Of a DNA stretch of 43,221 bases, positions 4,508-25,929 are shown in pieces (position 1 is the stretch's first letter; every line of letters starts with the position of its first letter). The translations under genes and the position numbers were made by a program. The stretch is from contig MTOU01000005.1 of the NCBI GenBank assembly GCA_002011745.1, forward strand, positions 1 to 43,221, in the 5' to 3' direction. The stretch comes from Nitrospirae bacterium JdFR-85. Lineage in GTDB: Bacteria > Nitrospirota > Thermodesulfovibrionia > Thermodesulfovibrionales > JdFR-85. Under the pieces are notes generated by a model that saw only the letters and a program-made list of their open reading frames with translations, made no database searches and was not told the origin of the DNA.

Positions 4508-4561
4508 TACTTGCCCTCCTTTCTTCTCCCGATTAAGGCTGAAATACACCTAAAAATATTT

Positions 4562-5221
4562 TTAAAACCATCTCTTAATCTCCTTTCCACCAGTCTCTGT
4601 ATTAATCCCGTAATAAAACTTTCCTGATGTATAGACAAAAACAGAAATAATCACCTCTACATCAGACATATAAACCACTTCTCTCATTCTCCAGAAGGCA
4701 TCTACCTTGGTAACAAAAATGAGATGAGGTTCTGATATTACAAATATTTTCTCTTTTAAATATCTTTTTATCTTTCTTATCTCGTTCCTAACTATTAAAC
4801 CAGAGACCTCATTCGTAACTTTCAGAAAGACAATATATTTCTTAAGAAACTTACGCCCTTCATATACTCCATCAAAGCCCTCCACGTCCAGCTTGGTAAG
4901 CTCCTTCAACTTAACATGTTTTTTAAATTTATTAATCACTTCAACGAAAGAGAAGGCAAAAAACTCTTTCATCTCTTCCTTGCCTTTCCTCATTAAATCT
5001 TTCTTCTTGGAAAGGAGCCATCTATCATACTGGAGCCTCTTCATCGGGTTCCTGAGAACTGAATATGCTTCATTAATCTCGGCCATTTTATCCACTGCTT
5101 CAGGTGAAGTATTCCTATCAGGATGATACATAGACGCAAGGCGTCTATAAGCCCTTTTTATCTCATCAAAAGTGGCTTTTCTGTCAACACCAAGTATCTT
5201 ATAATAATCCCCTTTAAACAT
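4562..5221 (-). CDS. DnaJ-domain protein with unknown C-terminal domain
   Basis: A 219-residue protein. Residues 4-70 form a J domain ([11 protein letters not shown] at 33-35, INEAYSVL), which stimulates DnaK-type Hsp70 ATPases. There is no Gly/Phe-rich region, zinc finger or DnaJ substrate domain, so this is a class III J protein. The remaining ~145 residues start with a lysine-rich helix and continue into an alternating hydrophobic, beta-rich segment ending in KRWF that I do not recognise. The start overlaps the end of the PilB-receiver gene by 8 bp and the degenerate PilB follows, so the J domain probably brings Hsp70 to the pilus motor proteins (inference). Confidence 0.85.
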
Positions 5222-7472
5222 AAATTCTTGTAAGGAGTCTCTTCACCCTCGCTTGTAGCTCTGTATAATCAAAAGGCTTGGTTATATAATCATCTGTACC
5301 GTAGGTAAATCCCTTTAACTTATCTTCTGCTGTATCCCGCGAAGATAGGATTATTATCGGAATAAACATCGTATGCATATTAGAACGCAACTTCTTGATA
5401 AGTTCAAATCCATCCATCTCAGGCATATTTATATCTGTAATAATAAGGTTAGGCATGGTATTCATTACCTTCTCAAGAGCTTCTCTTCCATTTGTAGCAG
5501 TATATATCTCAAGCCCAAGAGGACGAAGGGCCACCTCTACCATTTTCAGTATTCCTGGCTCATCATCTACAACAAGCACCCTGTACCGGGATTCTATTAC
5601 AGGAGGCTTCTTCTCTCTTGGCTTACCACAGTAAGGACAGAACTGCCATTCTATGTTGAGTTCCTTTTTACAACTTTTACAAACCTCTACAGAGGGAACC
5701 CCACAATAGGGACATTCCTCTGTATCGTATCTGTTTCCACATTCAGAACATTCTTTCCACCTTTTAACCTCTTCTACAGGTATAACCCTCAGAACCTCTT
5801 CAAGGGTGGTTACACCATTGTAGACCTTTTGCAGGGCTGCCTCATACAGGGTGAGCATCCCTTCCTTCATTGCCTCCTCTTTCAACTGCTGTGCGGTGGC
5901 TCCTCCAATAATCATCTCTTTTAAACGAGGTGTTATCTCCATTATCTCAAATACTGCAATCCTGCCCCTGTAACCAGTATTACTACACCTATCACACCCC
6001 ACACCTCTCATAAATTTTACATCTCTTCTTATAGATGGAAACATATTAAGCACACTCCTGTTAGGAGTATACTCCCTTATACATTCATCACAGTTAAGCC
6101 TTAATAATCTCTGAGCTACTACACATAGGAGGGATGAACCCACAAGGAATGGTTCCACCCCGAGATCAATAAGACGGGTAATTGTCGATGCTGTATCATT
6201 CGTATGTAAGGTACTCAACACAAGGTGTCCCGTCATAGATGCCCTGAATGCTATCTCTGCAGTCTCATAGTCCCTAATCTCTCCCACCATCACCACATCG
6301 GGGTCCTGCCTCAGTATAGACCTGAGGGTATTGGCAAAAGTAAGACCTGCCTTCTCATTTACCTGCACCTGAGTTATCCCCTTTAGTTCATACTCTACAG
6401 GATCTTCTACGGTTATTATATTTATCTCTTCAGAATAGAGTTCCTTAAGTATCCCATGCAGTGTGGTAGTCTTTCCGCTTCCTGTAGGCCCTGTAACGAG
6501 TATCATGCCCTGAGGCTGTGTGAATGCCTTCTTTAACTTATTGTACTCATCTTCACTCAGGCCTGTAGATATAAGTTCAATAGATGTCTCTTCTGGATTC
6601 AGAAGCCTTATAACCGCCTTTTCTCCAAGATGTGTGGGCAGAGTGGAAACCCTGAGGTCCAATGCCTTATCCTGTATCTTTATCTTGATGGCTCCATCTT
6701 GTGGAGTACGTCTGTTACTGATATCCAGTTTGGACATAATCTTTATTCTCGATATTACAGCAGAATGGAGCCACTTGGGTATCTCCATCTGTGTTCTTAA
6801 AACACCGTCAATTCTGAATCTTACTTCTACATTTCTCTGTGATGGCTCTATATGAATATCACTGGCCTTGCATTTCATCGCCTCTTTCAAAAGGTGATTA
6901 ACTATCTTTATTGCAGGAGCCAGAAGGGTATTATCATCACTTATCTCAACTCTGGTTCCGGTCTGGAACACATCTGTGGCCACAGATGACTCTTCTGGTA
7001 GAATCTCTATCTCATCTGGAGTTTCAGGAACTATATTGTCAAGTAGAGTAACGAGGTCAGAACTTATGTTGTAATAGGTATTAACAGCCTCAATGATCTC
7101 CGTCTTGGTAGCTACATAGGGCATAATAGAGAGTTCTGTAATAAAGGAGAGGTCCTGTATTGTATTTATATCCAGAGGGTCAACCATTGCCACCTTCAGA
7201 TATCTATTCTCTCTGTCAAAAGGGATACAGAGATACTTGAGTGCCAATCTCTCAGAAAAGCCTTCTAATGCATCTGGTGGGATATCAGATAAATCAGCAC
7301 GCTTAAAATTGAATTGTTCAGTATAAATAGAAACCAGTTTCTCCTCATCCACTGGCATTCTCTCTAGCATCTCCAGAATGAAGCTACGACCTTTCACATC
7401 TTTTTTTATCTTATCCAACTCTTCCCTGCTGATTAATCCAGCATTTACTATAGCTTCACTTAATAGATCCAT
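5214..7472 (-). CDS. pilB: PilB-type pilus extension ATPase fused to zinc ribbons and a receiver domain
   Basis: A 752-residue fusion. Residues 1-135 are a T2SSE_N-like domain. Residues 180-565 are an intact GspE/PilB ATPase with Walker A GPTGSGKT (328-335), Asp box TVEDPVEY, Walker [13 protein letters not shown], His box [14 protein letters not shown] and the family tetracysteine zinc site (C461, C464, C493, C496). Two extra zinc ribbons follow (C575/C578/C587/C590 and C598/C601/C612/C615). Residues 631-752 are a receiver domain with acidic pocket VVDDE, phospho-acceptor D680 ([10 protein letters not shown]) and Lys in TKPF. PilB normally ends after the ATPase (~570 residues). The ribbons and receiver suggest that pilus extension is set directly by phosphorylation, possibly from the GAF kinase two genes upstream. 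The ATPase could also serve a type II secretion-like machine; PilB is preferred because pilT is in the same operon. Confidence 0.92.
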
Positions 7473-7488: not shown

Positions 7489-9141
7489 TTATTTTTTCAA
7501 AACTATTATTCTATTTCTTCCCTGGTTTTTAGCACTATATAAAGCCTCATCAGCAGCTTTAATTAACTCTGTAACATCCTTATAATCAGGATAAGTGGCT
7601 ATACCACAACTGAAAGTTGCTCTAAATTCATCCTCACCAGCTCTATGTCTTATCTGACTAAAACTGACCCTGATCTCATCGAGTATCATCCTTGCCTGCT
7701 CTGGGGTTGTGGAGTTTAATATAACAGCAAACTCTTCTCCACCGTAACGGCCAATGATGTCAGTCTTTCTCAAACGTTGTTGAAGAAGTCTTGCAAGTGC
7801 TACAATTACCATATCTCCTACATAGTGTCCATATGTATCATTTACTCTCTTGAAGTGATCAAGGTCAATCATTGCAAAGGTTACTGATGTATTCATCCTT
7901 CTTGCCCTGTCTATAGAGATGTCAAGCTGCTCCTTTGTTTTGGAATGATTCAGTAATCCTGTAAGACTGTCTCTATCCATAAAAGATCGCAACATCCTCA
8001 TCCTCTCAGCCCTTATCCTGACAGATGATATAAGATGTTCAGGCTCAACAGGCTTTGTTATAAAATCATCGCCCCCCACACTCATAGCTGAAAATTTCTG
8101 CACAGGATCTGTCTCTGCAGAAAGAAAAACTATAGGAATACATACAAATGCCTTCATCTGGCGGATCATCTTAGCAAGTTCTTTACCATTGCATTGAGAC
8201 ATATACATATCCATAAGAATAAGATCAGGATTAAACTCAAAAAGGCAAGAAAAGACATCAAGAGGATTATTAACTATTTCTGCCTCCATACCTGCCTGTT
8301 TCAATAGAATCGAATAATACAGTGCCAGCTTTGGCTCATCTTCCACAATAAGCACCCTATAAGGCTCTTCTGTCTTGTCACTGGTTAATACATCAAGTCT
8401 GTCTATAAGATCAATGATATTAAAGGGTCTTACAAAGTATTCATCTCCTCCTGCACGTATCACTTTCAGTCTTATGTGTATATCGTCTTGATTGGATATA
8501 AACAGTACAGGCAGATTATGACCGAATTTATTCTTTAATTTTTTTATCGTTTCGGCACCTTTTATCTCATCTCCATCCAACACCGTATCCAGTATCAATG
8601 CAGAAGGAATAACATCTTCAGAAAGGATGTGAGAAAGGTTCTCTATCCCCTCAAAGGCCTTAACAGTATAACCAAAATGGCTGATCTGAAAGGCAAGATT
8701 TTTGAGTTCTTCCTCTTCTTCAGAAATGAGCACCACCAAATCACTCCTTCTGTCTCTACTAAAACTGGCTGAAGAGAGACTGTAGAAGGTTCCATGGTCT
8801 GTATAATCTTTCTTTATAGAAACCAGTGCCTCTGTCTTCATCATTTCTATAATCTCTTCTATTAGTATTCGCTGTTTTTCTGTAATCTCTCCTTCATTAC
8901 TTATTAATTCCTGGACCAGTTCTTTTAATCTATTGGTCCTCTGGCTTATTCTTTCATATCCAAAAGACGCACAGGCACCTGCTATGTTCTGAAGCAGATA
9001 TAGAAGCTTATTCAGACTATCAAGAGAACCACCACTCTGCAACACCCTATGCCAACAATCTTCTATCTCCCTTATCCGTTCAGGCAGTTCACAGGCATAC
9101 TCATCACGAATCTGTGCTATCTTTTTCTGTATATGGTTCAT
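7489..9141 (-). CDS. Diguanylate cyclase with degenerate Hpt and two receiver domains
   Basis: A 550-residue cytoplasmic signalling protein. Residues 1-105 look like an Hpt four-helix bundle, but the phospho-His position is Gln51 (QNIAGACASFG). A first receiver (135-252) keeps D185 but has Arg in place of the conserved Lys (VRPF). A second receiver (261-375) is complete, with VEDE, D311 and K363. The C-terminal GGDEF domain (385-550) has the active signature GGEEF (467-471) and an inhibitory RxxD I-site (RKTD, 458-461) at the standard 5-residue spacing. It should make c-di-GMP when D311 is phosphorylated and be product-inhibited. Its gene overlaps the upstream GAF kinase (ATGA), the likely phosphodonor. 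c-di-GMP is the known activator of PgaC/PgaD in E. coli, and a pga operon starts transcription nearby. Confidence 0.93.
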   Translation of the reverse strand: MNHIQKKIAQIRDEYACELPERIREIEDCWHRVLQSGGSLDSLNKLLYLLQNIAGACASFGYERISQRTNRLKELVQELISNEGEITEKQRILIEEIIEMMKTEALVSIKKDYTDHGTFYSLSSASFSRDRRSDLVVLISEEEEELKNLAFQISHFGYTVKAFEGIENLSHILSEDVIPSALILDTVLDGDEIKGAETIKKLKNKFGHNLPVLFISNQDDIHIRLKVIRAGGDEYFVRPFNIIDLIDRLDVLTSDKTEEPYRVLIVEDEPKLALYYSILLKQAGMEAEIVNNPLDVFSCLFEFNPDLILMDMYMSQCNGKELAKMIRQMKAFVCIPIVFLSAETDPVQKFSAMSVGGDDFITKPVEPEHLISSVRIRAERMRMLRSFMDRDSLTGLLNHSKTKEQLDISIDRARRMNTSVTFAMIDLDHFKRVNDTYGHYVGDMVIVALARLLQQRLRKTDIIGRYGGEEFAVILNSTTPEQARMILDEIRVSFSQIRHRAGEDEFRATFSCGIATYPDYKDVTELIKAADEALYSAKNQGRNRIIVLKK

Positions 9142-10607
9142 GTGCCACTTCTTTCGTTACGGATAGCCTCATTCAGAGGCAATCTAATAATAAAATTTGC
9201 TCCACTAAAACCCTCAATGCCTGAATAGTTCTCATTTATTGCTCTAATAGTACCACCATGTTCTTCAACTATCTTTTTGGTAATAGCAAGTCCCAATCCT
9301 GTTCCAGAACTTTTACCCTTAGTAACAAAAGGTTCAAAAACCTTGGGGAGAATCTCTTCAGGGATACCTCTTCCAGAGTCTGCCATTACCATCTCAAAAA
9401 GATTATCCACTTTACGACAGAGAATTAAAAACTTGTCACCTTCTCTTAAAGCCTCTTTCGCATTATTAGAGATATTAAATATTACTCTTTTGAATTTCTC
9501 AGGATCTATATATACCGGTCCTACATAGTCAAGCCTTTTCACAACTTCGATCCTCTTCATCGCCATCTCTTTTTCTATATAGGATAAAACTTCAGAGATA
9601 AAGTCTCTAATATCCACTTCTTTCACTGAAAGCCTCTTTTTGAATCCTCTTGTGAAAGCAAGAAGGTCTTCGATCATCTCCACAAGTCTATTGACCTCGT
9701 CAACTATCAACTTACTGTACTCTTTTCTCTCCTCAGAACTGAACTCCATATCTCCAAGAAGCCCTGCAAATCCTTTTATTGTAGCCATTGGATTCTTTAT
9801 ATCATGAATTATCCCTGCCGCCATCTGGCCAATTGTAGCAAATCTCTCCTGTTTGAGTTTCTCTTCCATAAGGTGATATGTCTCTATTGCTCCTGCTACC
9901 ATTACTGAAATAGAAAGCAGCAAAGACTCGTCCTCACTGGTGAAGCCTCCTCTGAGTTTATTACTAAGATTGAGAACTCCTACGGTTTTGTCTTTAACTC
10001 TGAGAGGCACACAAAGAAGTGAGTTTATATTTACCTCGCCTCCTTGGACAAAATCGTGGTCTTTAATAGGCTCATTTATTATCACAGCCTTACCACTCTT
10101 GAATACCCTGCCTGCAACTCCTGCATTTATATCAAGCCAACAGGGTTCATTAACAATTCTACCTGAGACAGCCTTAATAAAGAACTTTCCATCTTCTGAT
10201 TCAACAGTCATTATAGAACAATTCTCCACGCCCATTATTTCTTTTATCCTTAAAGTAACCACCCCCAGTATCTCGTTTATCTCTATGGATGAACTCATTA
10301 TCTCACTTAATTCAGAAAGAAAGGTAAGTTCTCTATATTTATTAAGGGTATGAGATATTACTCTCTTTTTCTCTTCTATCTCCTCGATAAAACATTCAAT
10401 AATTTTTGCAATAGTGTTGATATCCGGGCTTTCGCCCTTAACTATCCCAACCCGGTCTTCTTCAACCCTTACCTCTACAGAATAAACCTCACTAACATCT
10501 GATGAATAAAGCTTCTTACCTTCAGGGTAATAAAGACAGAAAGGCGAAATCTTCTCTTCAAGCACTTTACAGATTTTTAATATATCCTTTTTTCTTATGG
10601 GGGTCAT
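9138..10607 (-). CDS. GAF-domain cytoplasmic histidine kinase
   Basis: A 489-residue soluble sensor kinase with no membrane helix. An N-terminal region (1-90) with a helical linker leads to a GAF domain (about 95-245), then HisKA with phospho-His H269 in IIHDIKNP and a HATPase_c domain (N box NISNNAKEAL, G1 DSGRGIP, G2 GTGLGLAI). It presumably binds an internal ligand through GAF and phosphorylates one or more of the operon's receivers: the GGDEF protein immediately downstream (4-bp overlap), the PilB fusion or the CheY-like protein. It begins 4 bp inside the end of the 72-residue gene, so translation is coupled. The ligand cannot be read from the sequence. Confidence 0.92.
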   Translation of the reverse strand: MTPIRKKDILKICKVLEEKISPFCLYYPEGKKLYSSDVSEVYSVEVRVEEDRVGIVKGESPDINTIAKIIECFIEEIEEKKRVISHTLNKYRELTFLSELSEIMSSSIEINEILGVVTLRIKEIMGVENCSIMTVESEDGKFFIKAVSGRIVNEPCWLDINAGVAGRVFKSGKAVIINEPIKDHDFVQGGEVNINSLLCVPLRVKDKTVGVLNLSNKLRGGFTSEDESLLLSISVMVAGAIETYHLMEEKLKQERFATIGQMAAGIIHDIKNPMATIKGFAGLLGDMEFSSEERKEYSKLIVDEVNRLVEMIEDLLAFTRGFKKRLSVKEVDIRDFISEVLSYIEKEMAMKRIEVVKRLDYVGPVYIDPEKFKRVIFNISNNAKEALREGDKFLILCRKVDNLFEMVMADSGRGIPEEILPKVFEPFVTKGKSSGTGLGLAITKKIVEEHGGTIRAINENYSGIEGFSGANFIIRLPLNEAIRNERSGT

Positions 10608-10822
10608 AACCTCATACCACCCCGCCTCAAACTTTTATCTAACTCCTCTGAAAGGATTTTGAATTTATCAAGATCAAGCTTCCTTAGAATCTCCATCTCC
10701 TTCTTAGTAAAAACAAATCCCTCCTTAATACATGTCTCCACAAATGATGTCTTTACCATTTCTCTAAAGACATCATCTGTAATTATTCTACCAAGAAATC
10801 TCTCTACTGAATCCTGCCCCAT
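10604..10822 (-). CDS. 72-residue small protein, first gene of the signalling/pilus operon
   Basis: A small mainly helical protein with no membrane segment or cysteines suited to metal binding. The layout (S-VERFLGRI-TDD-FR start, a central F-x-T-K-E-E-like segment, then L-L-D-K-F) resembles short proteins annotated as the Franean1_4349 family of putative RiPP precursors; this is from memory of the pattern. No RiPP-modifying enzyme is present here, so a regulatory or adaptor role for the downstream kinase is at least as likely. The ATG has a strong GGAGGAG ribosome site and the stop overlaps the kinase start. It is the first gene after the sigma-54 promoter at 10858-10873. Confidence 0.72.
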   Translation of the reverse strand: MGQDSVERFLGRIITDDVFREMVKTSFVETCIKEGFVFTKKEMEILRKLDLDKFKILSEELDKSLRRGGMRL

Positions 10823-10857: not shown

Positions 10858-10873
10858 AACAAAAATTGTGCCA
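10858..10873 (-). promoter_or_regulatory. Sigma-54 promoter of the signalling/pilus operon
   Basis: On the minus strand the sequence TGGCACAATTTTTGTT has a perfect -24 element (TGGCAC) and a -12 element TTGT, with GG and GT separated by the canonical 10 bases; the consensus is GC. Transcription would start about 12 bases on, roughly 25 bp before the ATG at 10822. A tandem pair of inverted repeats lies 63-100 bp upstream, a usual distance for an enhancer-binding activator. Confidence 0.62.
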
Positions 10874-10935
10874 AATTAAGAATTTTTTGTTTTTAAAAAT
10901 TATACAGGATTATACATCAGAATTTTACACCTTAC

Positions 10936-10972
10936 TGTACTCTTTTGGTACAGACTGTTCCTTTAATGGACA
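10936..10972. promoter_or_regulatory. Tandem activator-binding sites upstream of the signalling/pilus operon
   Basis: Two 17-bp inverted repeats with 6-5-6 layout: TGTACT-CTTTT-GGTACA (10936-10952) and the weaker TGTTCC-TTTAA-TGGACA (10956-10972). Their start points are exactly 20 bp apart, so both would face the same side of the helix. The same arrangement occurs at 17694-17730 upstream of pgaA, and I found no other copies in the window. They fit upstream activating sequences for the NtrC-type regulator at 17768-19138. Confidence 0.6.
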
Positions 10973-10988
10973 TTTATATAAATAGACT

Positions 10989-11402
10989 TTACTGTAGTGG
11001 CCACACAATCTCTTTTTTGGACATCAACTCCTTAACCTTATCAGGATGCAGTTTGAAGTATTCTGCAAACTGGTCTATGCCAGAAGCAGCCACACTGCGT
11101 CTCTTGTTTCTCTTACCAAACCTCCAATAATTATAATATCCCCAGGTACGAAGAACAACAAATACTACCAAGATGATCCAGCCCATTTTACTAATAAGAG
11201 CAAAGAATTCTTTATATCCCACCTTCTCTATAACCTCCACATAAAAGTATCTAAATCCTAATATCCAGAGAATTAAGCTCAATATAGGTGACAGCAGATA
11301 CAGCCATAATCCCCAAACTATACCTGTAATGCTTAATTCAGTAATTGTTCTTAAAAAAGATTTTAAACTTGGATTGTCTCTTATTTCAATATCCTCTGAC
11401 AT
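10989..11402 (-). CDS. pgaD: PgaD, PNAG synthase accessory subunit
   Basis: A 137-residue inner-membrane protein, the same length as E. coli PgaD. Two membrane helices (about 25-55 and 65-90) precede a basic cytoplasmic tail. In E. coli PgaD forms the PNAG synthase with PgaC, and the pair binds c-di-GMP allosterically. The ATG at 11402 is chosen over an in-frame start at 11450 because GGGAGGAGG lies directly before it and it overlaps the pgaC stop by one base (TAATG). PgaD is poorly conserved in sequence; the identification rests on size, topology and its place at the end of a pgaABCD operon. Confidence 0.85.
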   Translation of the reverse strand: MSEDIEIRDNPSLKSFLRTITELSITGIVWGLWLYLLSPILSLILWILGFRYFYVEVIEKVGYKEFFALISKMGWIILVVFVVLRTWGYYNYWRFGKRNKRRSVAASGIDQFAEYFKLHPDKVKELMSKKEIVWPLQ

Positions 11403-12676
11403 TATAACCTCCTCCCTATGGTCTCTATTCCTCTGTCTGGACTCTTCCATACGGCCCTTCTCTTTTCTTTCCTAAACAAGACCTTAGGGACCGCTACAGT
11501 TACAGTCAATGCATTGATCATCCAGTACGCGAAGGGATACCATATAACCCAGAATAGATATTTAAACATCTTTTTATCATATATATAATCCATACTTAAG
11601 CTAACTACAAACTGGATCAAACACACAAGGGCAAGGATTGATCCTGTCCATAGAGGTGGAATTGGAGGAACAAACTTAATGGGCATAACAAGTTTGAATA
11701 AAGCCTGAACCGCCCATAAACAGATGATCAACCAAAAGGAGTATGACCAGAAGGCACTCAGTATATACTCAATATAAATGGGCCATAGCCTTCTCTGTCT
11801 CCAATCTTTCCAGATATTTACATGTTTCTTTAAGACTTCTACACCTCCCTGTGCCCAACGGAGACGCTGTCTCCACAAACCTCTCAGTGTCTCAGGCACA
11901 AAGACCCAGCAGATAGCCCGGGGTTCATATCGTACATCCCAGAAGTTCTTCTCCAGTTTCCATGTGATATCTATATCCTCTGTTACCATATCTGTATCCC
12001 ATAGACCGACAGAAATCAAAGCCCGCTTACGGAATGCAGCCATCACCCCAGAAACTGTTAAAATTTTACCGAGTATCCTTTGTGCCCTTTTAATTAATCC
12101 AATAATAGTTGAGAACTCTCCTGTCTGTATTTTGCCAAGCAGGGTAGTACGATTAATAACTCTTGGATTGCCTGTGATAGCACCCACTCGTGAATACTTC
12201 ATGAAATGCCACGCAAGCCATTTAAGAGCATTACGGTCAACCAAGGCATCTGCATCCACTGTAAGAATAAACTCTCCTCTGGCCACCATTGCACCTATAC
12301 TAAGAGCAGCTCCTTTACCTTGATTCTCCTTTAAATATACAACCCTTATACGATCGTGCTTTTGAGCGTATTCTTTTAATATTTCTGCGGTTCTATCAGT
12401 ACTACCATCATCTATTGGTATTATTTCGTAATTTGGATAATCTAATTTCAATAGTTGATCCAGTGTCTGTCTAATCTGACCCTCTTCATTGTGACAGGGT
12501 ACCAGCACTGAAAACATTGGATACTCTTTAAGTTCAGGCAAGGTCTGTTTCTTTCTCTCATGTCTCCAATAAAACAGTATCCCTCCCACTATCCAGACAA
12601 TACTCATCAGCAGTGGATAGAGATATACAAAATCACTTATAAACTGTAAAACCGCCTCTATGGTTGTTCTATTCAT
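11402..12676 (-). CDS. pgaC: PgaC, poly-N-acetylglucosamine synthase
   Basis: A processive family-2 glycosyltransferase of 424 residues that polymerises UDP-GlcNAc into beta-1,6-linked PNAG at the inner membrane. N-terminal membrane segments (ending WIVGGILFYWR) lead to the catalytic domain with PIDDGSTDRT (UDP binding), VDADALVD (DxD), TEDIDITWKLE (catalytic base region) and QRLRWAQGG (QxxRW processivity motif), followed by C-terminal helices. The start at 12676 forms an ATGA overlap with pgaB; a start at 12745 would overlap pgaB by 73 bp and is rejected. In E. coli the synthase depends on PgaD and c-di-GMP, and a diguanylate cyclase is encoded in the next operon downstream. Confidence 0.95.
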   Translation of the reverse strand: MNRTTIEAVLQFISDFVYLYPLLMSIVWIVGGILFYWRHERKKQTLPELKEYPMFSVLVPCHNEEGQIRQTLDQLLKLDYPNYEIIPIDDGSTDRTAEILKEYAQKHDRIRVVYLKENQGKGAALSIGAMVARGEFILTVDADALVDRNALKWLAWHFMKYSRVGAITGNPRVINRTTLLGKIQTGEFSTIIGLIKRAQRILGKILTVSGVMAAFRKRALISVGLWDTDMVTEDIDITWKLEKNFWDVRYEPRAICWVFVPETLRGLWRQRLRWAQGGVEVLKKHVNIWKDWRQRRLWPIYIEYILSAFWSYSFWLIICLWAVQALFKLVMPIKFVPPIPPLWTGSILALVCLIQFVVSLSMDYIYDKKMFKYLFWVIWYPFAYWMINALTVTVAVPKVLFRKEKRRAVWKSPDRGIETIGRRL

Positions 12677-14586
12677 GGCAAAAATGGATAATCCTTGGTT
12701 GACATTTCGAGTTTTATAATATTTAGTGCCGGCTTGTTCTCCCATACATTATCAGGATAATAGGCTATGCTTCTGCCACCTGAGGCCAGTATGTCCCTCA
12801 TCTGAGAAAGCAATTTCCAGTCATCTATCCATTTATTTCTTCGCCAGTCATATGCCTGTAATTTGAAAACTGTTTTCTTAACACCAGACTTAAATCCCTT
12901 GGCAACTCTGACTAGTTTTCCGAGCCATTCGGATGGTTTCTTAACTTCTTCCATATAGGGATAGGCCATTACTACCACATAATCATAGTTATTCAAGAAG
13001 AGTTCATAATTCTGCGCAAACCACTCCTCGGACTCCGGCTCTGTTAAAAGAGGTGCATAAATATTCCTTGCAAAGAAAGTCTCAGGACGATACTTTCTCA
13101 CACTTTCCATAAGTTCTTTTGTAAAATCTATCAACACCTCAGTCTTATATCTACTCCATTGCTTCATAAGTTCAGGGTCTTCTTTAATATTCACCCTCTG
13201 GAAATCTATACCAAAACGTTCTTTGTATTTTTCAAGTGCTGCAGGATGGAAATCTTCATAGTCTGTAAGATAGGCATCGTCCTGAAATAGAACTCCTTGT
13301 ATTAATGAGTGAGCAGCAAGGTCTTCATATAACATACGCATTATCTCTCTTGTCTTTTCACTAAAAGGACTCAGCCTGTTATACCAGGACTTTTTCTCTT
13401 CTGGTTTACTCACCACTTTAAGAGACTGATTGAGTTCTTCATCTGGCAGCTCAATGCTTAAAACCGGCATCCAGGCATAAACATCCATATCTCTTATCTT
13501 TATTTGATGCACTGCATGACTGAAGATATCAGCCTTCATAGGCAAAACCCTATTAGGAAAATATACGCTCTTGATGTTGCCTGTACCCTCAGGGTCAGAG
13601 AATGCCTGAAGAAAAACCGTGTTTACTTTCATAGCCACTAAACGGTCAATCAACCTCCCCAGGTTTTCATCTGTCTTTTCATAGGATTCTGGATCATAAA
13701 TCAGATCAAGGTCTACTTGGACTGCCCTCACATAGTATTGAAATTTACTGGACTGGTTGACCATCTCCACAAACTCTTCCATAGGTTCATTCATAACAAA
13801 ATTACGTTTTATTTCATAAAGAGAGTCTAAATCAGCATAACCATTGAAAGAGGTAAAACACATCTTATATCCCCTTTTTATGGCTATCTCTTTACTTATT
13901 GTAGTGTACTTTCCGAAAGGCCATACTATCGCACGTGGTTTAAAACCAAGATGTTTTTGAAAAACCTCCTCCTGTTGTTCAAAATCTCTCTCGATCCTCT
14001 CTATGTATTCCTCCTCTGTCTCATATCTCTTGGTTAAAGGATCATATGCTCTGACATACAATGCTGGACCTATATTACCTACAGAATTGTACTGAATGCC
14101 TTTATGAAGATCATATGTATGGGATACTATCTCCACAAGTTCCTTTGATGCCAACTCTTTTATCTGTTCCCAGCTCATAATAGGCTCTGGGATCTCCTTG
14201 GGGGGATTGTCCACATAAGCCCCACTTATCGCAACTACTGAAGGATAACCAAACTCTTCAAGTACAGGAACTACAAATTCATAGTAAGAAACATAACCAT
14301 CATCGAATGCAATCAATACAGGCTTAGGTGGCAGCTTCTTCTCTCCTCTGCTCGCCTTTAGAATATCATCCAGTGATATGGGATGGAATCCATGTGTTCT
14401 CAAATACTCCATCTGTTCCACAAAATCTTTTCTTGATACACTGTACTCGTCCTTTGGATTTTCAACTACTGCGTGATAAACAATAACCAAGAACTCTCCT
14501 TCCTTCATCTCCTTTGCAACCACTGAGCAATTAAAATTTAAAATAACCAGTATATTCAGAAATATGAATATTAAAATCCTACACAT
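12673..14586 (-). CDS. pgaB: PgaB, PNAG N-deacetylase with glycoside hydrolase-like domain
   Basis: A periplasmic enzyme of about 637 residues that partly de-N-acetylates PNAG before export. A hydrophobic signal segment ends near residue 24; a Cys at 20 could carry lipid as in E. coli, but the lipobox is poor. The N-terminal CE4 domain has the metal/catalytic motif AFDDGY (D95, D96) and SHTYDLH (H156, H161). From about residue 288 a GHL13-type domain follows (VDLDLIY, NTVFLQAF, GVLFQDDAYLTDYED), which in E. coli binds and in some species cleaves PNAG. The ATG at 14586 has GGGGGAG upstream and shares one base with the pgaA stop; a TTG one codon earlier is possible. Both halves are present, as in Gram-negative PgaB. 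Confidence 0.95.
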   Translation of the reverse strand: MCRILIFIFLNILVILNFNCSVVAKEMKEGEFLVIVYHAVVENPKDEYSVSRKDFVEQMEYLRTHGFHPISLDDILKASRGEKKLPPKPVLIAFDDGYVSYYEFVVPVLEEFGYPSVVAISGAYVDNPPKEIPEPIMSWEQIKELASKELVEIVSHTYDLHKGIQYNSVGNIGPALYVRAYDPLTKRYETEEEYIERIERDFEQQEEVFQKHLGFKPRAIVWPFGKYTTISKEIAIKRGYKMCFTSFNGYADLDSLYEIKRNFVMNEPMEEFVEMVNQSSKFQYYVRAVQVDLDLIYDPESYEKTDENLGRLIDRLVAMKVNTVFLQAFSDPEGTGNIKSVYFPNRVLPMKADIFSHAVHQIKIRDMDVYAWMPVLSIELPDEELNQSLKVVSKPEEKKSWYNRLSPFSEKTREIMRMLYEDLAAHSLIQGVLFQDDAYLTDYEDFHPAALEKYKERFGIDFQRVNIKEDPELMKQWSRYKTEVLIDFTKELMESVRKYRPETFFARNIYAPLLTEPESEEWFAQNYELFLNNYDYVVVMAYPYMEEVKKPSEWLGKLVRVAKGFKSGVKKTVFKLQAYDWRRNKWIDDWKLLSQMRDILASGGRSIAYYPDNVWENKPALNIIKLEMSTKDYPFLP

Positions 14587-17480
14587 CAAAATCTCCCCCT
14601 GTAGGTGAGATAGAAACTATAACTATACACAGAGTCTCCATCATAGACCTGTCTTGAGACTGTAATACCCCACAGCAGTGCCTGGGTATCAGAAAAATCG
14701 TAGATATGCTCATACCGGACAGCCCAAGTTGGTCTGGGAGAGTATCCTGACTGTTTATATGTTCCTCCCGTAAGAAAGAGTTTCTGAAGGAATGCCTTAT
14801 TGTAAATCCTCCAATGGGTATATTCAGTCATAAGCGTTGCAGACAGACTAAGGTCATACTCTGGATTAAAGTAGGGGACATCCCTCTTTGAATTCTTGGA
14901 TGAAAATAGTTCTAAGAAAAATCTAAATCTCCAATTATTCTTCACATAAAGTCCCTGTTCATAGGTAAACATACCTTGAAATCTATCATTTCCGTCTGAA
15001 AAGTTGAGATAAGAAAGTAACAGCCCATACTCACGCCACTCACTTTCTCTATAGGTTATATCTGCCTCTAACTTACTGGCCTCTATGTTATACACCCTTG
15101 CTCTGACAGGAATGTCTGTTGTGAAAGAATCATAGGAAACTCCAAAGGTCCAGTAGTCATCAGGAGTGAAGACCACTTCTGTGAATGAACCTAAATTATC
15201 TCCAGTATCATATTCAACAGAAAAATGCTGCCTTGCCCTCCAAGAGCTATTGAATATATGTTCAGCTCCAGCGCCTATTCTCCGATAATAATAGTGTCTA
15301 TCTTCGGTATCTATATAACTCTGCTGCCAGAGCAAGAAACCATATACATGGGTATAAAGGGTAACAGGTTGGTACAGGGCAATATTCAATCTTATATCTT
15401 CATATCCATCCTCATCCCTGTAATACACAAAATCCCCTCTCACCTCTCTCATCTCTTCCACTTCAAGTTTACGAATAAGTTGCTGAACATGTTTATCCTT
15501 GGGGTACTCTGCAAGAAGCTGTTTTGCTCCTTCTCTTGCCTCTTCTTTATAAGCAAGCTGGTTGAGGGTGTGCATCATACCTATTCTCGCCTTCACATTA
15601 TGAGACTCCATAGAATGAATTATCCTAAATTCTCTTAATGCCTTTCTTGGCCATCCACGCCATAGATACATGTGTGCAAGTCCTGTACGAATACCCATAT
15701 TTGCAGGTGCCTGCTTCCTTAATCGCCAGAAGTACTCCTCTGCCTCCTTCAACCTATCTTCATATGCAAGCATCCATCCTCTAATCACAGCAATCTCCAA
15801 CTTCTTCCAGTTTGGGACTGCTGTTTTACCCAACCAGTAAACTCTCGGTTGCTCTTTATCTAACTCATCAAGAATCTTTCTTGCTTTGTTGAACTTCCTT
15901 AGTTCCTGTAGAGTATAGAACTTCCCCAATCGTCCATTGTAGGATCTTGGATTGCTCTTAAGGGCCTTATTGTAGAGCTCAAGAGCCTTCTCAGGCTTTT
16001 CAAGATACAGATATGCCTTAGCCACATTCTCCAAGACCCACCATGGAAGAAATATATCTCTTTCTACAAGTCTCTCATAAGCCTCAACAACCTCTTTCAT
16101 ATCATTGTTTTCAGCAAGTGCAATTATATAATCAAACCTTGCACGTAGATTATCAGGATCACTCAACAAAGGCTGCAGTATCTTCTTTGCTTCCACAGGT
16201 TCCTTCCACTTGATCCGATCAGTGGCTGTATTACCTATAAGAAAAATATGCAAATCCTTGGCATCAGGTAGTTTTTGGTAGGCCTTATCAAGTGCCAGAG
16301 AGCTTGCTCCAAGATCAGAAAAGGCTATAAGTCTCAACCTATGAGCAGTCTTGTTTTCAGGATATATTTCAAGAATACGATCATACTCTTTTATGGCTTC
16401 CCAAAACTTCTTTGCCTGCTCAAAAACATATGCACGGGCAAATAGGACTCTGTTGTCTGTATCAGGAAGTTCGTCTAATATCTTAAATGCCTTCTCAGAC
16501 TCATGCTCCTTTGCCAGACAGTAGGCCAAACCTATCTTTGCACGAACATAATCAGGATTCCTTTTAATTACTGTCTTATAATAATATTTCGCCTTACTGA
16601 TATCCCCACTCTTAAAGTAGGCCCATGCAATCCATGTAAATAGATGGTCTGATCCCTTAAGAGTATCTATATTTTCTTCAAAAAGTTTAATCGCTTTGTC
16701 GTAATCCTTGTATGTAACAAGTGCCACTATATAATCCTCTATTGTACCTTCCTGTTTAAGTTGCTCAAGCAGAAGCCTTTTTTTCTCGTAGGGAAGAGAA
16801 GCAATTAAATCATTAATTCTCTTATCTATCTCCTCCTTGTCTATACCCTCAATCTTTTTAATTTCATGGTATAAACGAAGAGCATCTACATATCTGCCTT
16901 TCTCAAACAGGATATGGACCCTCATCAAATCAATATCTCCATCACCTTCTATAGAAGTTTCCTCCAAGTATCTTAGAGCCTCCTCCAATCTCCCTATCTT
17001 GATAAGACTCGCCACAAGACCTTTTAAAGCCTCTGTGTCTGCAGGATTCTTTTCAAATGCCTCTTTGTACAGAGAAAAGGCCTCCTCAAACTCTCCATGT
17101 TCAAAATATGCCTTTGCTATATTTCTTAGGAGATAGGGTCTTCGAGGAAAAGAAGATGGTAGATTCTCAAACATTCTAATTGCCTCATCATTCCTTCCTA
17201 CCCAGACCAGGATAACGATATAATCAGAAGTGGCCTCAGGAAATTCCATTGGTTCTGATACATACGGAGACAAAAGTGACAGCGCATCTTCATACTCTTC
17301 TTGGTTAACAAGCTCTCTCACTTTTTGGAGTATTGAATTAATTTCATCCTGCGTTACTACAGCATTCTCTATCCTGCCTGTAGAGTCCACAGAAACTCCT
17401 ATCACCGTATTATGGCAGGTTAGAATAAACAAAACCACTAATAATATTTTGCAACCCTTTTTCATCAACTCTTTTCTCAT
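14586..17480 (-). CDS. pgaA: PgaA, PNAG outer-membrane export porin with TPR domain
   Basis: A 964-residue outer-membrane protein, longer than E. coli PgaA (about 807). A signal peptide (hydrophobic stretch ILLVVLFILTC) is followed by many TPR helices (about 40-680; repeated patterns such as AKAYFEHGEFEEAFSLYKEA) that would sit in the periplasm and dock PgaB and polymer. A C-terminal beta-barrel (about 700-964) has alternating aromatic strands and ends in a final F, as outer-membrane barrels do. It is the first gene of pgaABCD. Possible starts are the ATG at 17480 and an in-frame ATG at 17465 that has a weak AAAGAG site. A sigma-54 promoter, a sigma-70-like promoter and two activator sites lie upstream. 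The extra length is in the TPR part. Confidence 0.93.
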   Translation of the reverse strand: MRKELMKKGCKILLVVLFILTCHNTVIGVSVDSTGRIENAVVTQDEINSILQKVRELVNQEEYEDALSLLSPYVSEPMEFPEATSDYIVILVWVGRNDEAIRMFENLPSSFPRRPYLLRNIAKAYFEHGEFEEAFSLYKEAFEKNPADTEALKGLVASLIKIGRLEEALRYLEETSIEGDGDIDLMRVHILFEKGRYVDALRLYHEIKKIEGIDKEEIDKRINDLIASLPYEKKRLLLEQLKQEGTIEDYIVALVTYKDYDKAIKLFEENIDTLKGSDHLFTWIAWAYFKSGDISKAKYYYKTVIKRNPDYVRAKIGLAYCLAKEHESEKAFKILDELPDTDNRVLFARAYVFEQAKKFWEAIKEYDRILEIYPENKTAHRLRLIAFSDLGASSLALDKAYQKLPDAKDLHIFLIGNTATDRIKWKEPVEAKKILQPLLSDPDNLRARFDYIIALAENNDMKEVVEAYERLVERDIFLPWWVLENVAKAYLYLEKPEKALELYNKALKSNPRSYNGRLGKFYTLQELRKFNKARKILDELDKEQPRVYWLGKTAVPNWKKLEIAVIRGWMLAYEDRLKEAEEYFWRLRKQAPANMGIRTGLAHMYLWRGWPRKALREFRIIHSMESHNVKARIGMMHTLNQLAYKEEAREGAKQLLAEYPKDKHVQQLIRKLEVEEMREVRGDFVYYRDEDGYEDIRLNIALYQPVTLYTHVYGFLLWQQSYIDTEDRHYYYRRIGAGAEHIFNSSWRARQHFSVEYDTGDNLGSFTEVVFTPDDYWTFGVSYDSFTTDIPVRARVYNIEASKLEADITYRESEWREYGLLLSYLNFSDGNDRFQGMFTYEQGLYVKNNWRFRFFLELFSSKNSKRDVPYFNPEYDLSLSATLMTEYTHWRIYNKAFLQKLFLTGGTYKQSGYSPRPTWAVRYEHIYDFSDTQALLWGITVSRQVYDGDSVYSYSFYLTYRGRF

Positions 17481-17497
17481 CCTTTCTTCATAAATAA

Positions 17498-17513
17498 AGC
17501 AAAAAATATACCA
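17498..17513 (-). promoter_or_regulatory. Sigma-54 promoter of pgaABCD
   Basis: On the minus strand TGGTATATTTTTTGCT has GG and GC exactly 10 bases apart and a perfect TTGCT -12 element; the -24 element is TGGTAT instead of TGGCAC. The start point would fall near 17487, only a few bases before the pgaA ATG at 17480, which favours initiation at the ATG at 17465 from this promoter. Activator sites lie 180-218 bp upstream. Confidence 0.55.
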
Positions 17514-17637
17514 TCCCGCCCTTTGTGAAGATCTCCTTCTTATAAAGTAGAAACCCTTATCCTACTCAAATCCCTTCAGAATATTTATGTTAGGGAAGAA
17601 TTTAAGCGAAAAAAATCCTTTTTACTTAAGTAACCTA

Positions 17638-17666
17638 AGGATACCATTCTATACTTAAAAAGTCAA
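17638..17666 (-). promoter_or_regulatory. Sigma-70-like promoter upstream of pgaA
   Basis: On the minus strand TTGACT (17661-17666) and TATCCT (17638-17643) are 17 bp apart, and TGG directly precedes the -10 element (extended -10). Transcription from here would give a ~150-base leader running through the sigma-54 promoter. It may provide basal pga expression; it lies between the activator sites and the sigma-54 promoter. Confidence 0.42.
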
Positions 17667-17693
17667 ATAATATTTTGTGGAGAGCATATTAAC

Positions 17694-17730
17694 TGTACCT
17701 TTAAGACACACCTTGTACCTTTTTGGTACA
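17694..17730. promoter_or_regulatory. Tandem activator-binding sites upstream of pgaABCD
   Basis: Two 17-bp elements: TGTACC-TTTAA-GACACA (17694-17710) and the perfect inverted repeat TGTACC-TTTTT-GGTACA (17714-17730). They are 20 bp apart, matching the spacing and sequence of the pair at 10936-10972. They lie between the NtrC-type regulator gene and pgaA, about 180-218 bp upstream of the sigma-54 promoter, as expected for enhancer sites of that regulator. Confidence 0.62.
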
Positions 17731-17767: not shown

Positions 17768-19138
17768 CTACAAATTCCTTCGATAAAAGACCTTACGATC
17801 CACTTTAAGGAGTTCTGCTGCACGGGTTTTGTTGTTGTTACAGAGGTGAAGGGCTGTCTGAAGGACTTTGTCTATTATATTGTCCATTGTAAATTCTTCA
17901 ATGGAAAGAGTGATATTTATTTTATTCTTTTCAGGAAAATCTTCACCAGAAGGGTTTTTAGTTATAATAAGATGTTCAGGTTGTATAAGCTCATCTTCTA
18001 CCAGTATAGCTGCCCTTTCAAGACAGTTCTTTAACTCTCTAATATTACCTGGCCAACCATAATCTATTAGAACCTCCATTGCCTTCTGGGAAACTCCTGG
18101 AAGTCTCTTGCCAAGTTCCTTTCTGAACTGTGCTATAAAATGCTCAACAAGAAGTGGTATATCCTCTTTACGCTCTCTTAAAGGTGGCAAAGTAATTGGA
18201 AATGTGTTTATTCTATGGTAAAGGTCTTCACGGAATTTTCCTTCCTTCACTAACTGCTTAAGATCCTTATTTGTGGCTACAATGATACGAAAATCTGCTC
18301 TAATAGATTTATTAGATCCTACTTTCTCAAAAACCCGTTCTTCCAAAACTCTGAGAAGTTTTGCTTGAAGATCCAAGGGCATATCACCAATCTCATCCAG
18401 AAGAATAGTACCCCCTTGAGCAAGTTCAAATTTACCTTCTCTGTCTCTGTCAGCACCTGTGAATGCACCTTTCACATGACCAAACAATTCACTTTCAAAT
18501 AATGCAGGTGGTATCCCTGCACAGTTGACAGCTACAAATCTATTCTCCATCCTTTCACCTGCAAAATGTATAGCTCTGGCAAGCACTTCCTTCCCTGTAC
18601 CACTCTCACCATAGATGGCCACAGTAGTATCTGGTGTCTTTGCCACCTTCTCTGCAAGTCTAAGGGCGTCCCTCATCTTAGGAGAGTTTGTAACTATATT
18701 CTGAAAGCAGTACTGACTGCAGAGCTGTTCTTTTAGTTTCTTATTTGCCTCACTCAGCCTCCTGTAACTAAGGCTACGCCGAATAGTTGCAATAAGATTT
18801 TCGGGTTCACAGGGTTTCTCCAAATAGTCATCTGCCCCCTGTTTTATTGATATAACCGCCTTTGTAACACTGCCATGGGCAGTAAGCAGAATAAATGGCA
18901 TATCAGGATACCTTGCCTTTATTTCTCTCAGAAGTTCAATCCCATCCATTCTTGGCATCTGCTGATCAGACAGAACAAGATCAACATCGTGTTTCTCAAT
19001 CACTTCCAATGCCTCCACCCCATCTTCTGCTACAAGACACTTAAACCCCCCACGTGTTAGATTACGCTCCAATGTTTTACGGGCTATCTCACTGTCTTCA
19101 ACAATCAGGATGGTCGCTTTTGAATTCTCTGTTCCCAA
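17768..19138 (-). CDS. NtrC-family sigma-54-dependent response regulator
   Basis: A 456-residue three-domain activator. Receiver domain: VEDSE pocket, phospho-acceptor D58 (LSDQQMPRMDG) and Lys in LEKP. AAA+ domain: Walker A GESGTGKE (177-184), the sigma-54 contact loop GAFTGA (224-229), Walker B LLDEIGDM and an arginine-finger region. The C-terminal Fis-type helix-turn-helix (NKTRAAELLKVDRKVFYRR) is intact. It should open sigma-54 promoters when phosphorylated. No ATG exists at the 5' end. The TTG at 19138 is chosen because GGGAGAGG lies 8 bases upstream; a TTG at 19174 overlapping the kinase gene is the alternative. The kinase at 19161-22439 is the evident partner, and the tandem repeats at 17694 and 10936 are the proposed targets. 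Confidence 0.93.
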   Translation of the reverse strand: MGTENSKATILIVEDSEIARKTLERNLTRGGFKCLVAEDGVEALEVIEKHDVDLVLSDQQMPRMDGIELLREIKARYPDMPFILLTAHGSVTKAVISIKQGADDYLEKPCEPENLIATIRRSLSYRRLSEANKKLKEQLCSQYCFQNIVTNSPKMRDALRLAEKVAKTPDTTVAIYGESGTGKEVLARAIHFAGERMENRFVAVNCAGIPPALFESELFGHVKGAFTGADRDREGKFELAQGGTILLDEIGDMPLDLQAKLLRVLEERVFEKVGSNKSIRADFRIIVATNKDLKQLVKEGKFREDLYHRINTFPITLPPLRERKEDIPLLVEHFIAQFRKELGKRLPGVSQKAMEVLIDYGWPGNIRELKNCLERAAILVEDELIQPEHLIITKNPSGEDFPEKNKINITLSIEEFTMDNIIDKVLQTALHLCNNNKTRAAELLKVDRKVFYRRNL

Positions 19139-19160
19139 AGTTCTGACCTCTCCCTTTGAA

Positions 19161-22100
19161 TTAACCTGAAACAAATCCTTTTAGAGCCTCAACCAAATAT
19201 TCCATCTCCTTCTCCAATGCTTCGTACTCTTGCATAACCATTGACATATCCTTCTTACGCCCCATCACTTCCAGATTATAGGCCCTTTCTCGGGCCCTCT
19301 CAGCTCCGAAAGAGGCAAGTTCTGTCTTCAGTTTATGGGCTACACGGGCTAACCCCTCTGGATCATTTCTTTCTATAGCCTCTCTGATTCTTTCCAGTGA
19401 ATCTGGAGATTTTTTAATAAAGATCTCTGCAATCTCTTTTAAGAACTCTTCATCTCCTTCTACCAGTTTAAGTGCCTCTTTCAGATTAAATGCTTCCTCT
19501 TGAGCTTCTTTCTGAGGCACTATCCTCGATATAGTCTCAAATAGAACCTCTTTTCTTATAGGCTTTGATATGTAAGCATCCATCCCTGCATCAAGACAGC
19601 GCTGCATATCTTCTTTGAAGGCAAAGGCTGTTATAGCAATAATAGGAATATGACCTCCTATCACAGTCTCTCTTTCTCTTACTACTCGGGTTACCTCAAG
19701 TCCATCCATCTCAGGCATCTGCACATCCATTAATACCAGATCAAATCTAAAATTCTCTATAGCATCAAGTGCCTCACGACCATCTCTTGCTACTATAACC
19801 TTATGCCCCTCTTTCTCAAGCATACGGACTATCATCTTCTGGTTTATCTCATCATCTTCTGCAACCAGAACACTTAAAGAAGGGAGTTTCTTTGATGTCC
19901 AGATGGGTTTCAACATCTTTTTTCTCCTATCTGTTATTCTTACTTCTTCTTTCTGTTTTGAGAGAGCTTTAACAATAGTATTATACAACTCAGGTCTCTT
20001 TACTGGCTTTATAAGATAGGCAGAAATACCAAGAATCTTTGCCCTTGCAATATGATTACTTCTGTCTTCTGAGGTAAGCATCATAATAGTAGTCCCTTCA
20101 AGATCCTTATCATTCTTTATAGCACGTACAAACTCAAAACCATCCATCTCTGGCATCTTGCAGTCAACAAGCACAATATCATAGGGACTACCTGTCTCCT
20201 TCGCCTTTTTAAGCTCTTCAATGGCCTCTCTACCACTTTCAACTTCTGTTACTTTCATTCCCCATAGTGACAGTGTCTCTTTCAATATAAGCCGATTGGT
20301 AGCATTATCATCAACAACAAGGGCCTTCAAACCTTTCAGATCAATATATTCAGAGGGTTTAGCCACTGGCTTGTCTTGAATTCCGAAAGTGGCAGTAAAG
20401 TAAAAGGTGCTACCTCTGCCTTCTCTGCTTTCAACCCATATCCTACCCCCCATCAACTCAACCAGCCTCTTACTTATCGAAAGCCCCAGACCTGTACCAC
20501 TGTATTTTCTTGTGGTAGAAGAATCAATCTGTGTAAAGCTCTCAAATATATAATCCTGCTTCTCCTCAGGTATCCCGATACCTGTATCAGACACGGAAAA
20601 CAGGAGAGCACACTTACCATTTATCACCTCTTTCTTTTCTACAAGCAGATTTACCTCTCCTTCTTCAGTAAATTTTATTGCATTACTGAGAAGGTTCACC
20701 AACACTTGGCGGAGTCTACTGGGGTCTCCTACCAAATAGATTGGAACATCAGGACTGATATGGCAGGTAAGCTCTAAGTTCTTTTTATGTGCCCTGATAG
20801 CCATTATATCACAGGTCTTACAGACAACCTCTTCAAGGTCAAAATCTACAGTATGCAGTTCCAACTGTCCTGCCTCCACTTTGCTGAGGTCAAGTATATC
20901 ATTTATTAACTGAAGGAGATTCTCTCCCGCAGTCTTAAATATCTCCACATACTCAGCCTGCTCATCTGTAAGGTCTGTATCTTTTAGAAGCTCTGCCATA
21001 CCAATAATGGCATTCATTGGAGTCCTTATCTCATGGCTCATGGTGGCAAGGAACTCGCTCTTTGCCCTGTTTGCTGCCTCAGCAGCCTCCTTAGCAGCCT
21101 GTGCCTCTTCCTCCGCCTTCTTCCTCTCTGCTATCTCCTGTCTAAGGAGTTCATTTGAGCGGGATAGTTCTGCTGTTCTCTCCTCAACCCTCCTTTCCAG
21201 TTCACTTTGAGCCTTCTCAAGAGACTCAAGCATGGCATTAAAAATCTCTCCAAGCTCTCTGATTTCAGGAGGACCTCCTACCTCAACCTTCTTAGAGGTA
21301 AGACCCTTCTGATGAATCTCCTTCATGAGTGAGACAAGCTTTTTAACAGGCCTGTTCATGGTTTCACTGAAAACGATGGACAATGCTAAAGCAATACCAA
21401 GAAGAACTAAAGAGGTATAAAAGATCTTTCTACCAAGCCTTCTTGCAGGTGCTTCTATTTCATCCTTGTAAACAGAGGAGGCCACATACCAGTCAAGAGG
21501 CTCGAAATAGGCGACATAGGATTCCTTGGGATAGATATAGTTGCCTTTGTCATCAGGCCTATCCCATAGATACTCTAAAGGAACATCAGGATTTTGAGCC
21601 GCTTTCATAAGGTCCTCAACCATATATGTCCCTGTAACAGGATTTTTCAATTTTGAGACATCCTGGCCTGCCAGCACAGGATGAACAAGCATCTTCTTTT
21701 GACCATTGAAGATGAATATATATCCCGTCTTCGCAACCTTAACCCTTGCAAGAACCTTCCTGAGATTATCAAGCATTGCCTCCAGTTTTCGGGCTACTTC
21801 TTGCTCTATATCGTCAATATAGACTCCTGTACCGAGCACCCATCCCCATTCTGGGAAATGTTTCACATAGGCCAGCTTCTCCACAGGTTTCTCAGAATTC
21901 AACCTCCGCCACCAGTATGAGTAATACCCTTCTCCATACTTCCTTGCTATTTCTACCATTGGAGGCACTATAAGCTTACCATTAACGTCACGTACCTTTG
22001 AGTAGTCCTTACCATGTAACCTTGGGTCAGGATGGGATATAAGAACTGAGTTATAATCAGACACCCAGATATAGTCATTATTACCAAATCTATATGTTCT

Positions 22101-22439
22101 TAACTCTTCAAGTATTCTCCTTTTGGCTGTCTCCTCGTCAATCAATCCTTTTTGAACTCTTTCATACACCTTTCTTATTGCAGCTTCCTGGAGGGTTATT
22201 ATGTCTTTGATGTGTCTTTTATGAAGCTCAAGAGAAGACTGTTTGTAATAAAGGAGGTCATTATACTCATTCTCTATCTGAAGCATCACCAGTTTCAGGA
22301 CATTCCGGGCTGATTCCTCTTCTGCATTAAACATGGCAGTAACCACTTCCTGTCTGGTGAGCAACATAAAAGTAGCGGTAATAAAAACCACTATTCCACC
22401 TATCAGTAGGAGAGTCCTTGCTCTTAAAGAGAGTCTCAT
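19161..22439 (-). CDS. Cache-domain hybrid histidine kinase (HK-REC-REC-Hpt)
   Basis: A 1092-residue membrane phosphorelay kinase. TM1 (about 9-28) and TM2 (about 338-357) bracket a periplasmic double sCache_2 sensor ([19 protein letters not shown]). HAMP and a coiled coil (360-460) follow, then HisKA (H469 in MSHEIRTP), HATPase_c (NAIKF, DTGIGIP, GTGLGLS), receiver 1 (D759), receiver 2 (D905) and a C-terminal Hpt domain with H1035 ([12 protein letters not shown]). All phosphotransfer residues are present, giving a full BarA-like relay ending on Hpt, from which the NtrC-type regulator encoded just downstream would be charged. The sensor half closely resembles that of the kinase at 1-1683. The two genes are likely co-transcribed. 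Confidence 0.95.
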
Positions 22440-24698: not shown

Positions 24699-24940
24699 AA
24701 GGAAAGATAGAGATAGACAGAGAACTCTGCAAGGGATGTGCGTATTGTGTAATCACCTGCCCCAAAAAAATCATCGACATTGATAAAAAATTCAATTCTG
24801 CTGGATACTATCCGGCAGTATGCATAAGACCAGAGGAATGCACTGGCTGTGCCCTCTGTGCAGAAATCTGTCCTGAGATAGCCATAGAGGTCTGGAAAGT
24901 AGAGGCCCCCAACAAAAGCGAGGGCCTGCTACAGGGTTAA
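24695..24940 (+). CDS. 2x[4Fe-4S] ferredoxin, 2-oxoacid oxidoreductase delta-like
   Basis: An 81-residue protein with two CxxCxxCxxxCP clusters (C12, C15, C18, C22 and C49, C52, C55, C59), each able to hold a [4Fe-4S] centre. The spacing between clusters and the [10 protein letters not shown] segment resemble the delta subunit (KorD/VorD type) of 2-oxoacid:ferredoxin oxidoreductases. The alpha, beta and gamma subunits that normally follow are absent, and the gene ends overlapping the stop of a convergent gene. It may serve an oxidoreductase encoded elsewhere or act as a free ferredoxin. Confidence 0.88.
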
Positions 24941-25422: not shown

Positions 25423-25462
25423 GCTACACCTCCAAATATTGGTATTCACTGTTAATGTTTGA

Positions 25463-25918: not shown

Positions 25919-25929
25919 CATACACCTCC

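Follow-up and report, generated by a model that had tools for sequence, protein, structure and literature searches.

The 43,221 nucleotides analysed here (contig MTOU01000005.1 of Nitrospirae bacterium JdFR-85; the whole stretch is referred to as the window) carry a two-component system and two operons that it is predicted to control. These genes are all on the reverse strand. The system consists of a hybrid histidine kinase with a dCache_2 sensor and REC-REC-Hpt domains (19161-22439) and of its predicted partner, an NtrC-type response regulator (17768-19174) whose gene overlaps that of the kinase. The regulator has a receiver domain, an AAA+ domain with the GAFTGA motif at residue 236 and a short helix-turn-helix (HTH) ending KVDRKVFYRRNL, and PF00072, PF00158 and PF02954 all score above their cut-offs. 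One of the two operons holds the four genes for poly-N-acetylglucosamine (PNAG), each above its equivalog cut-off: pgaA for the export porin (14586-17480; TIGR03939, 464 bits, cut-off 367), pgaB for the deacetylase (12673-14589; TIGR03938, 646 bits, cut-off 322), pgaC for the synthase (11402-12745; TIGR03937, 568 bits, cut-off 422) and pgaD (10989-11450; TIGR03940, 74.9 bits, cut-off 31). The other is a long signalling operon. A preliminary description of this DNA had begun it with a kinase, overlooking the true first gene, which encodes a small protein of 72 amino acids (aa) belonging to the Os1348 family of the NHLP clan (10604-10822; NF038399, 49.5 bits, cut-off 40); the kinase comes after it.

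Upstream of each operon there is a tandem pair of 17-bp dyads with a 6-5-6 layout, predicted to be activator sites and given no strand, and a reverse-strand -24/-12 element resembling those of sigma-54 promoters. Both pairs and both elements were found exactly where the preliminary description had placed them. The pga pair (17694-17730) lies 38 bp past the stop codon of the regulator and 180 bp from the -24 element of TGGTATATTTTTTGCT (17498-17513), which agrees with the consensus at 9 of 12 positions and stands 17 bp before the start of pgaA. At the signalling operon the pair (10936-10972) is 62 bp from the -24 element, so that the distance differs between the two operons; here the element, TGGCACAATTTTTGTT (10858-10873), agrees at 10 of 12 positions and stands 35 bp before the Os1348-family gene. 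Both pairs are in a 20-bp register, and their copies are uneven. Those of the pga pair read TGTACC-TTTAA-GACACA (17694-17710, 4/6 complementary) and TGTACC-TTTTT-GGTACA (17714-17730, 6/6), and besides the latter the window has no perfect dyad and the genome has one more. Those of the signalling operon read TGTACT-CTTTT-GGTACA (10936-10952, 5/6) and TGTTCC-TTTAA-TGGACA (10956-10972, 4/6).

The tandem pair exceeds chance expectation. A pattern built on the two copies in the window has exactly three places without mismatch in the 2.33-Mb genome, with all others needing 3 mismatches, and its reversed control has no match at up to 1 mismatch. A looser tandem pattern matched without mismatch in 3 of the 176 genomes of the order (one match in the reversed control): at the regulator/Os1348 locus in two relatives (G011 and G013), and at the third site of the present genome (G000). 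Only results at 0-1 mismatch are used here; with 2 mismatches, a relaxed pattern was discarded, as control matches outnumbered real ones in most genomes. Single dyads gave 703 matches at up to 3 mismatches against 697 in the control and are therefore uninformative, and elsewhere in the genome near-perfect single sites have no sigma-54-like element at the right distance. The third tandem pair (G000:C3:2689-2725) was found independently on another contig, upstream of a gene for a secreted beta-helix protein. This protein has at least 841 residues, with a hydrophobic start resembling a signal peptide and beta-helix repeats, and its gene runs off the contig end; a sigma-54-like element, TGGCAGGATTTTTGAT, follows 53 bp after the pair. 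The earlier statement that the repeats have no other copies thus holds within the window and fails for the genome, and in place of a two-operon regulon one with three target promoters is likely, judging from these matches.

The sigma-54-like elements differ in how much they contribute. The bare GG-N10-GC core is found in the window not significantly more often than by chance (183 found, 169 expected). There are 11 places in the window, counting both strands, that score at least 9/12, so that little weight can be put on the pga element by itself, and more on that of the Os1348 operon. Among 16 promoters examined, the dyad end is 52-55 bp from the -24 element at 12, and about one helical turn further out at the Os1348 promoter here (62 bp) and at one from Geobacteraceae (63 bp), while at the pga promoter and that of G246 no convincing 6-5-6 dyad was seen at the proximal place. 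The probability of such spacing under uniform placement is tiny, but overstated, because the relatives include close ones and a number of elements were selected by eye. Two relatives (G178 and G187) have a distal pair at 181-182 bp, like the 180 bp of pga, and both also have a proximal dyad. An exact 20-bp register is not a universal rule, since relatives use 19, 20 or 21. An alternative pga promoter nearer to the dyads (TGGTATCCTTAGGTTA) was judged by eye to have no -12 element.

Orthologues of the regulator are sporadic: 12 of the order's 176 genomes have one, as do 14 of the 396 genomes sampled across the phylum, and at the threshold used the same-genus relative has none. Of 17 orthologous loci examined (in 15 genomes and on the metagenome contigs L018 and L019), 11 have an Os1348-family gene next to the regulator or near it, mostly with a sigma-54-like element and tandem dyads, spaced at 19-21 bp, in the DNA between the two genes. 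The order regulator, dyads, sigma-54-like element, Os1348 is found in G011, G082, G108, G161, G174, G028, G178, G187 and G019, and in part in a Geobacteraceae metagenome-assembled genome (MAG) and in G013, where the contig edge seemingly leaves only the last codons of the regulator before the sites and the Os1348-family gene. G118 has its Os1348-family gene ~1.7 kb further on, past a sugar-transferase gene. G246 has a predicted secreted protein after dyad-like repeats and a sigma-54-like element. In G028 there is a second Os1348-family gene 13 kb away (L155:403-588) with a near copy of the promoter region of the first; this copy has three dyads and a sigma-54-like element, and is an internal duplication. 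It is worth mentioning that G386, from another family of the same class (L181, L198), has a 78% identical regulator and a 66-68% identical kinase, perhaps through horizontal transfer; no Os1348-family gene follows, and by eye the next gene is a DNA methyltransferase on the other strand.

The pga genes behave differently. PgaC-family genes above the cut-off occur in 4 of the 176 genomes of the order, and a pga operon adjoining this regulator was seen in the present genome only. The closest related pga operon, in a genome of the same family (G003; PgaC 78% identical), does not adjoin the regulator, and its upstream DNA (~200 bp on the contig) has no tandem dyads and no good sigma-54 element. Conservation in relatives, which had been set as a test at the outset, speaks for the arrangement of regulator, sites and Os1348; to judge from these gene orders, the conserved target is the Os1348-family gene, not pga. 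The pga operon appears to have joined the regulon in this lineage by landing between the regulator and the Os1348 operon, an order of events that we infer. What follows Os1348 in other genomes varies: in G082 it is an HD-GYP protein, in G161 a GGDEF-EAL protein with a PilZ protein behind it, in G011 a kinase, in the Geobacteraceae MAG a chemotaxis receptor, and in G019, G178 and G187 proteins predicted to be secreted or at the surface. The theme of the neighbourhood, as read from these predictions, is surface and c-di-GMP signalling (c-di-GMP, cyclic dimeric guanosine monophosphate), which agrees with the attachment programme imagined in the preliminary description and with published work linking sigma-54 to the cell exterior (PMC3162934). 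Literature searches found no report of this pairing of regulator and Os1348, which is not proof of absence.

The letters of the sites change together with the recognition helix of the regulator. Half-sites TGTACC or TGTCCC go with VDRKxFYRR or VNRKMFYRR, TGAACC goes with VGRNFLYRR, and GGCCC goes with INRKMFNRK in genomes of two classes. The distance between helices correlates with the distance between sites (Mantel r 0.58, p 0.0015) more closely than does the distance over the rest of the protein (r 0.34, p 0.008), though shared ancestry contributes to both correlations. RpoN is encoded in the genome (PF04552, 208.8 bits, at G000:C20). Together, co-variation and the presence of RpoN are good but indirect evidence that the regulator binds the tandem sites. 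The idea of a sigma-54 regulon united by one motif is supported by these comparisons, and the adjacent regulator is probably its driver, given its GAFTGA motif, RpoN and the way in which helix and site track each other.

The motif, its specificity in the genome, its conservation, its near-fixed geometry and its co-variation with the helix are all seen directly in the DNA, and as a whole they are best explained by a kinase-regulator phosphorelay that controls three sigma-54 promoters, an explanation that we consider probable. The dCache hybrid kinase would pass phosphate to the regulator, which would bind the tandem dyads, of the TGTACC-N5-GGTACA type and spaced by about two helical turns, and contact sigma-54 RNA polymerase at the -24/-12 element, giving RpoN-dependent transcription with start sites at all three promoters. 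The targets would then be pgaABCD for PNAG, the operon led by Os1348 with two kinases, a diguanylate cyclase and PilB/PilT-like ATPases, and the large secreted beta-helix protein. Kinase, regulator, dyads with sigma-54 promoter and Os1348-family gene would be the conserved core; in this lineage pga, with a copy of the sites to itself, would have come to stand between the regulator and the Os1348 operon. Co-control of these targets is well supported by the sequence, and the output is likely a surface-attachment state. In Escherichia coli c-di-GMP activates PgaCD (PMC8461298). The co-induced cyclase could in the same way raise PgaCD activity here, and such a feed-forward is plausible, provided that the cyclase product reaches PgaCD.

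Several points weigh against this explanation. Some of the sigma-54 elements of relatives were picked by regular expression or by eye before the geometry was measured, and the relatives are not all independent (G011/G013, G178/G187, G028/G174). The -12 part reads TTGAT, with GA instead of GC, in four promoters (G011, G013, G082 and the one at G000:C3), and no Os1348-family gene directly follows the regulator in G083, G120, G103, G246, G386 and L019. The pga promoter is the weakest and least certain of the three, with its 9/12 element, the lowest-scoring of them, 180 bp from the pair and no convincing proximal dyad. These features would be expected if the Os1348 operon and the beta-helix gene were the sole targets of the regulator, pga being transcribed from another promoter and its dyads serving another purpose or being a relic, from before the insertion of pga, of the ancestral Os1348 promoter; the pga-side dyads indeed lie 38 bp after the regulator gene, where the dyads of the Os1348 promoter sit in relatives. 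A relic should decay, yet it is the pga pair that holds the perfect dyad, and the distance of 180 bp is matched by the distal pairs of G178 and G187, though these have a proximal dyad as well. We regard this alternative as rather unlikely.

The genome also encodes at least 15 other regulator-like proteins, so that another activator could share the sites. It is very unlikely, however, that the tandem dyads are the sites of another NtrC-family protein and lie beside this regulator only incidentally: in many genomes, from two classes, they adjoin the orthologous regulator, whose recognition helix changes along with their letters. A more specific candidate is a PEP-CTERM (exosortase) regulon of the PrsK/PrsR type, where a kinase and an NtrC-type regulator act on surface proteins associated with exopolysaccharide (EPS) through a 17-nt box, sometimes repeated, ~63 nt upstream of a sigma-54 site and near EPS genes (PMC1569441). 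The layout is alike, and a PEP-CTERM response regulator is among the best NCBIfam matches of the regulator. Against this, the regulator reaches 401.4 bits with the PrsR family TIGR02915 (cut-off 502.6), the exosortase family reaches 26.4 bits in the genome (TIGR02602, cut-off 105.6), the sensor of the kinase is dCache, the box has other letters (that of PrsR ends TTTACA) and the conserved target is an Os1348-family gene. By the family cut-off and the exosortase search a PrsR-type regulon is largely refuted, and we give it hardly any credence.

The three-promoter phosphorelay can be placed beside other known systems. NtrC enhancers are paired 17-bp 6-5-6 dyads of the TGCACC-N5-GGTGCA type that activate sigma-54 promoters. 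The sites described here share the length, the layout, the pairing and the position at sigma-54 promoters, and differ in the half-site, the 19-21 bp register, the HTH and the targets, which are not those of nitrogen metabolism; the regulator scores below the cut-off of the NtrC equivalog (TIGR01818, 404 bits, cut-off 558.6). The four-gene PNAG set is that of Escherichia coli pgaABCD. We know of no sigma-54 control of that operon, whereas here pgaA has a sigma-54-like element and enhancer dyads upstream. In Burkholderia cenocepacia, BerB, RpoN and BerA control the Bep polysaccharide, and a RpoN-dependent enhancer-binding protein likewise couples EPS transcription with c-di-GMP (PMC9684580); the regulator of the present system differs in carrying a receiver domain, and its place seems to be upstream of a cyclase. 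Os1348 of Pseudomonas sp. Os17, of the same small-protein family (NF038399 above cut-off), is controlled by GacA, is possibly related to antibiotics and is followed by predicted modification and efflux genes (PMC7726476). No such neighbours were seen here, where the family member leads signalling or surface-protein operons.

A precursor of a ribosomally synthesised and post-translationally modified peptide would call for a core peptide behind the leader and for adjacent modification enzymes. The small protein ends 7 residues after the NHLP-clan domain, and among the operon genes scanned there is no such enzyme (the rest of the genome was not searched for one). A search of solved structures gave only a chance match to a designed barrel. 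It may be that the Os1348-family protein is a conserved component of signalling or surface assembly and not a natural-product precursor, being the ancestral dedicated output of the kinase-regulator pair and produced alongside c-di-GMP enzymes or surface proteins; we hold this tentatively, at slightly less than an even chance. If true, NHLP-clan proteins without adjoining modification enzymes would gain a role, and this stand-alone role is the most interesting point of the analysis. The partnership of a sigma-54 two-component system with an Os1348-family small protein is conserved and unexplained, and it makes the function of stand-alone NHLP-clan proteins testable. Beyond this, the locus offers a predicted activator for PNAG and for surface proteins in a group that has been little studied. 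Its binding-site code varies between lineages, and the way in which site and recognition helix co-vary could be of use in decoding the DNA specificity of NtrC-family regulators.

Behind the Os1348-family gene the signalling operon continues on the reverse strand with a GAF-domain histidine kinase (9138-10607) and a receiver-receiver-GGDEF diguanylate cyclase (7489-9141), which looks intact, having the active-site motif GGEEF and, five residues before it, the RxxD I-site as RKTD. There follow a PilB-like ATPase with MshEN, zinc ribbon, C-terminal receiver and Walker A motif (5214-7472), a DnaJ-domain protein (4562-5221), a degenerate PilB/MshEN protein (3125-4549), a T2SSE-family (PilT-like) ATPase with Walker A motif (2058-3128), a stand-alone receiver domain (1690-2061) and a dCache_2 histidine kinase cut by the contig end (1-1683). 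The term pilus motors, used earlier for these products, is loose: of the three ATPase-like proteins the degenerate one has no Walker A motif, and there is no pilin among the operon genes scanned. The degenerate protein is possibly a non-catalytic partner of the neighbouring ATPases. The earlier length of 10.8 kb is a minimum, as position 1 of the window is position 1 of the contig and the operon runs off it. The truncated kinase is 46.5% identical to the kinase of the regulator over residues 1-546 of the latter, dCache sensor included, which suggests a duplication and perhaps a shared signal. Elsewhere in the window (24937-28542), an extracytoplasmic function (ECF) sigma factor, a weak Metal_resist match, small proteins without a family and a histidine kinase form a separate stress or metal-response cluster.
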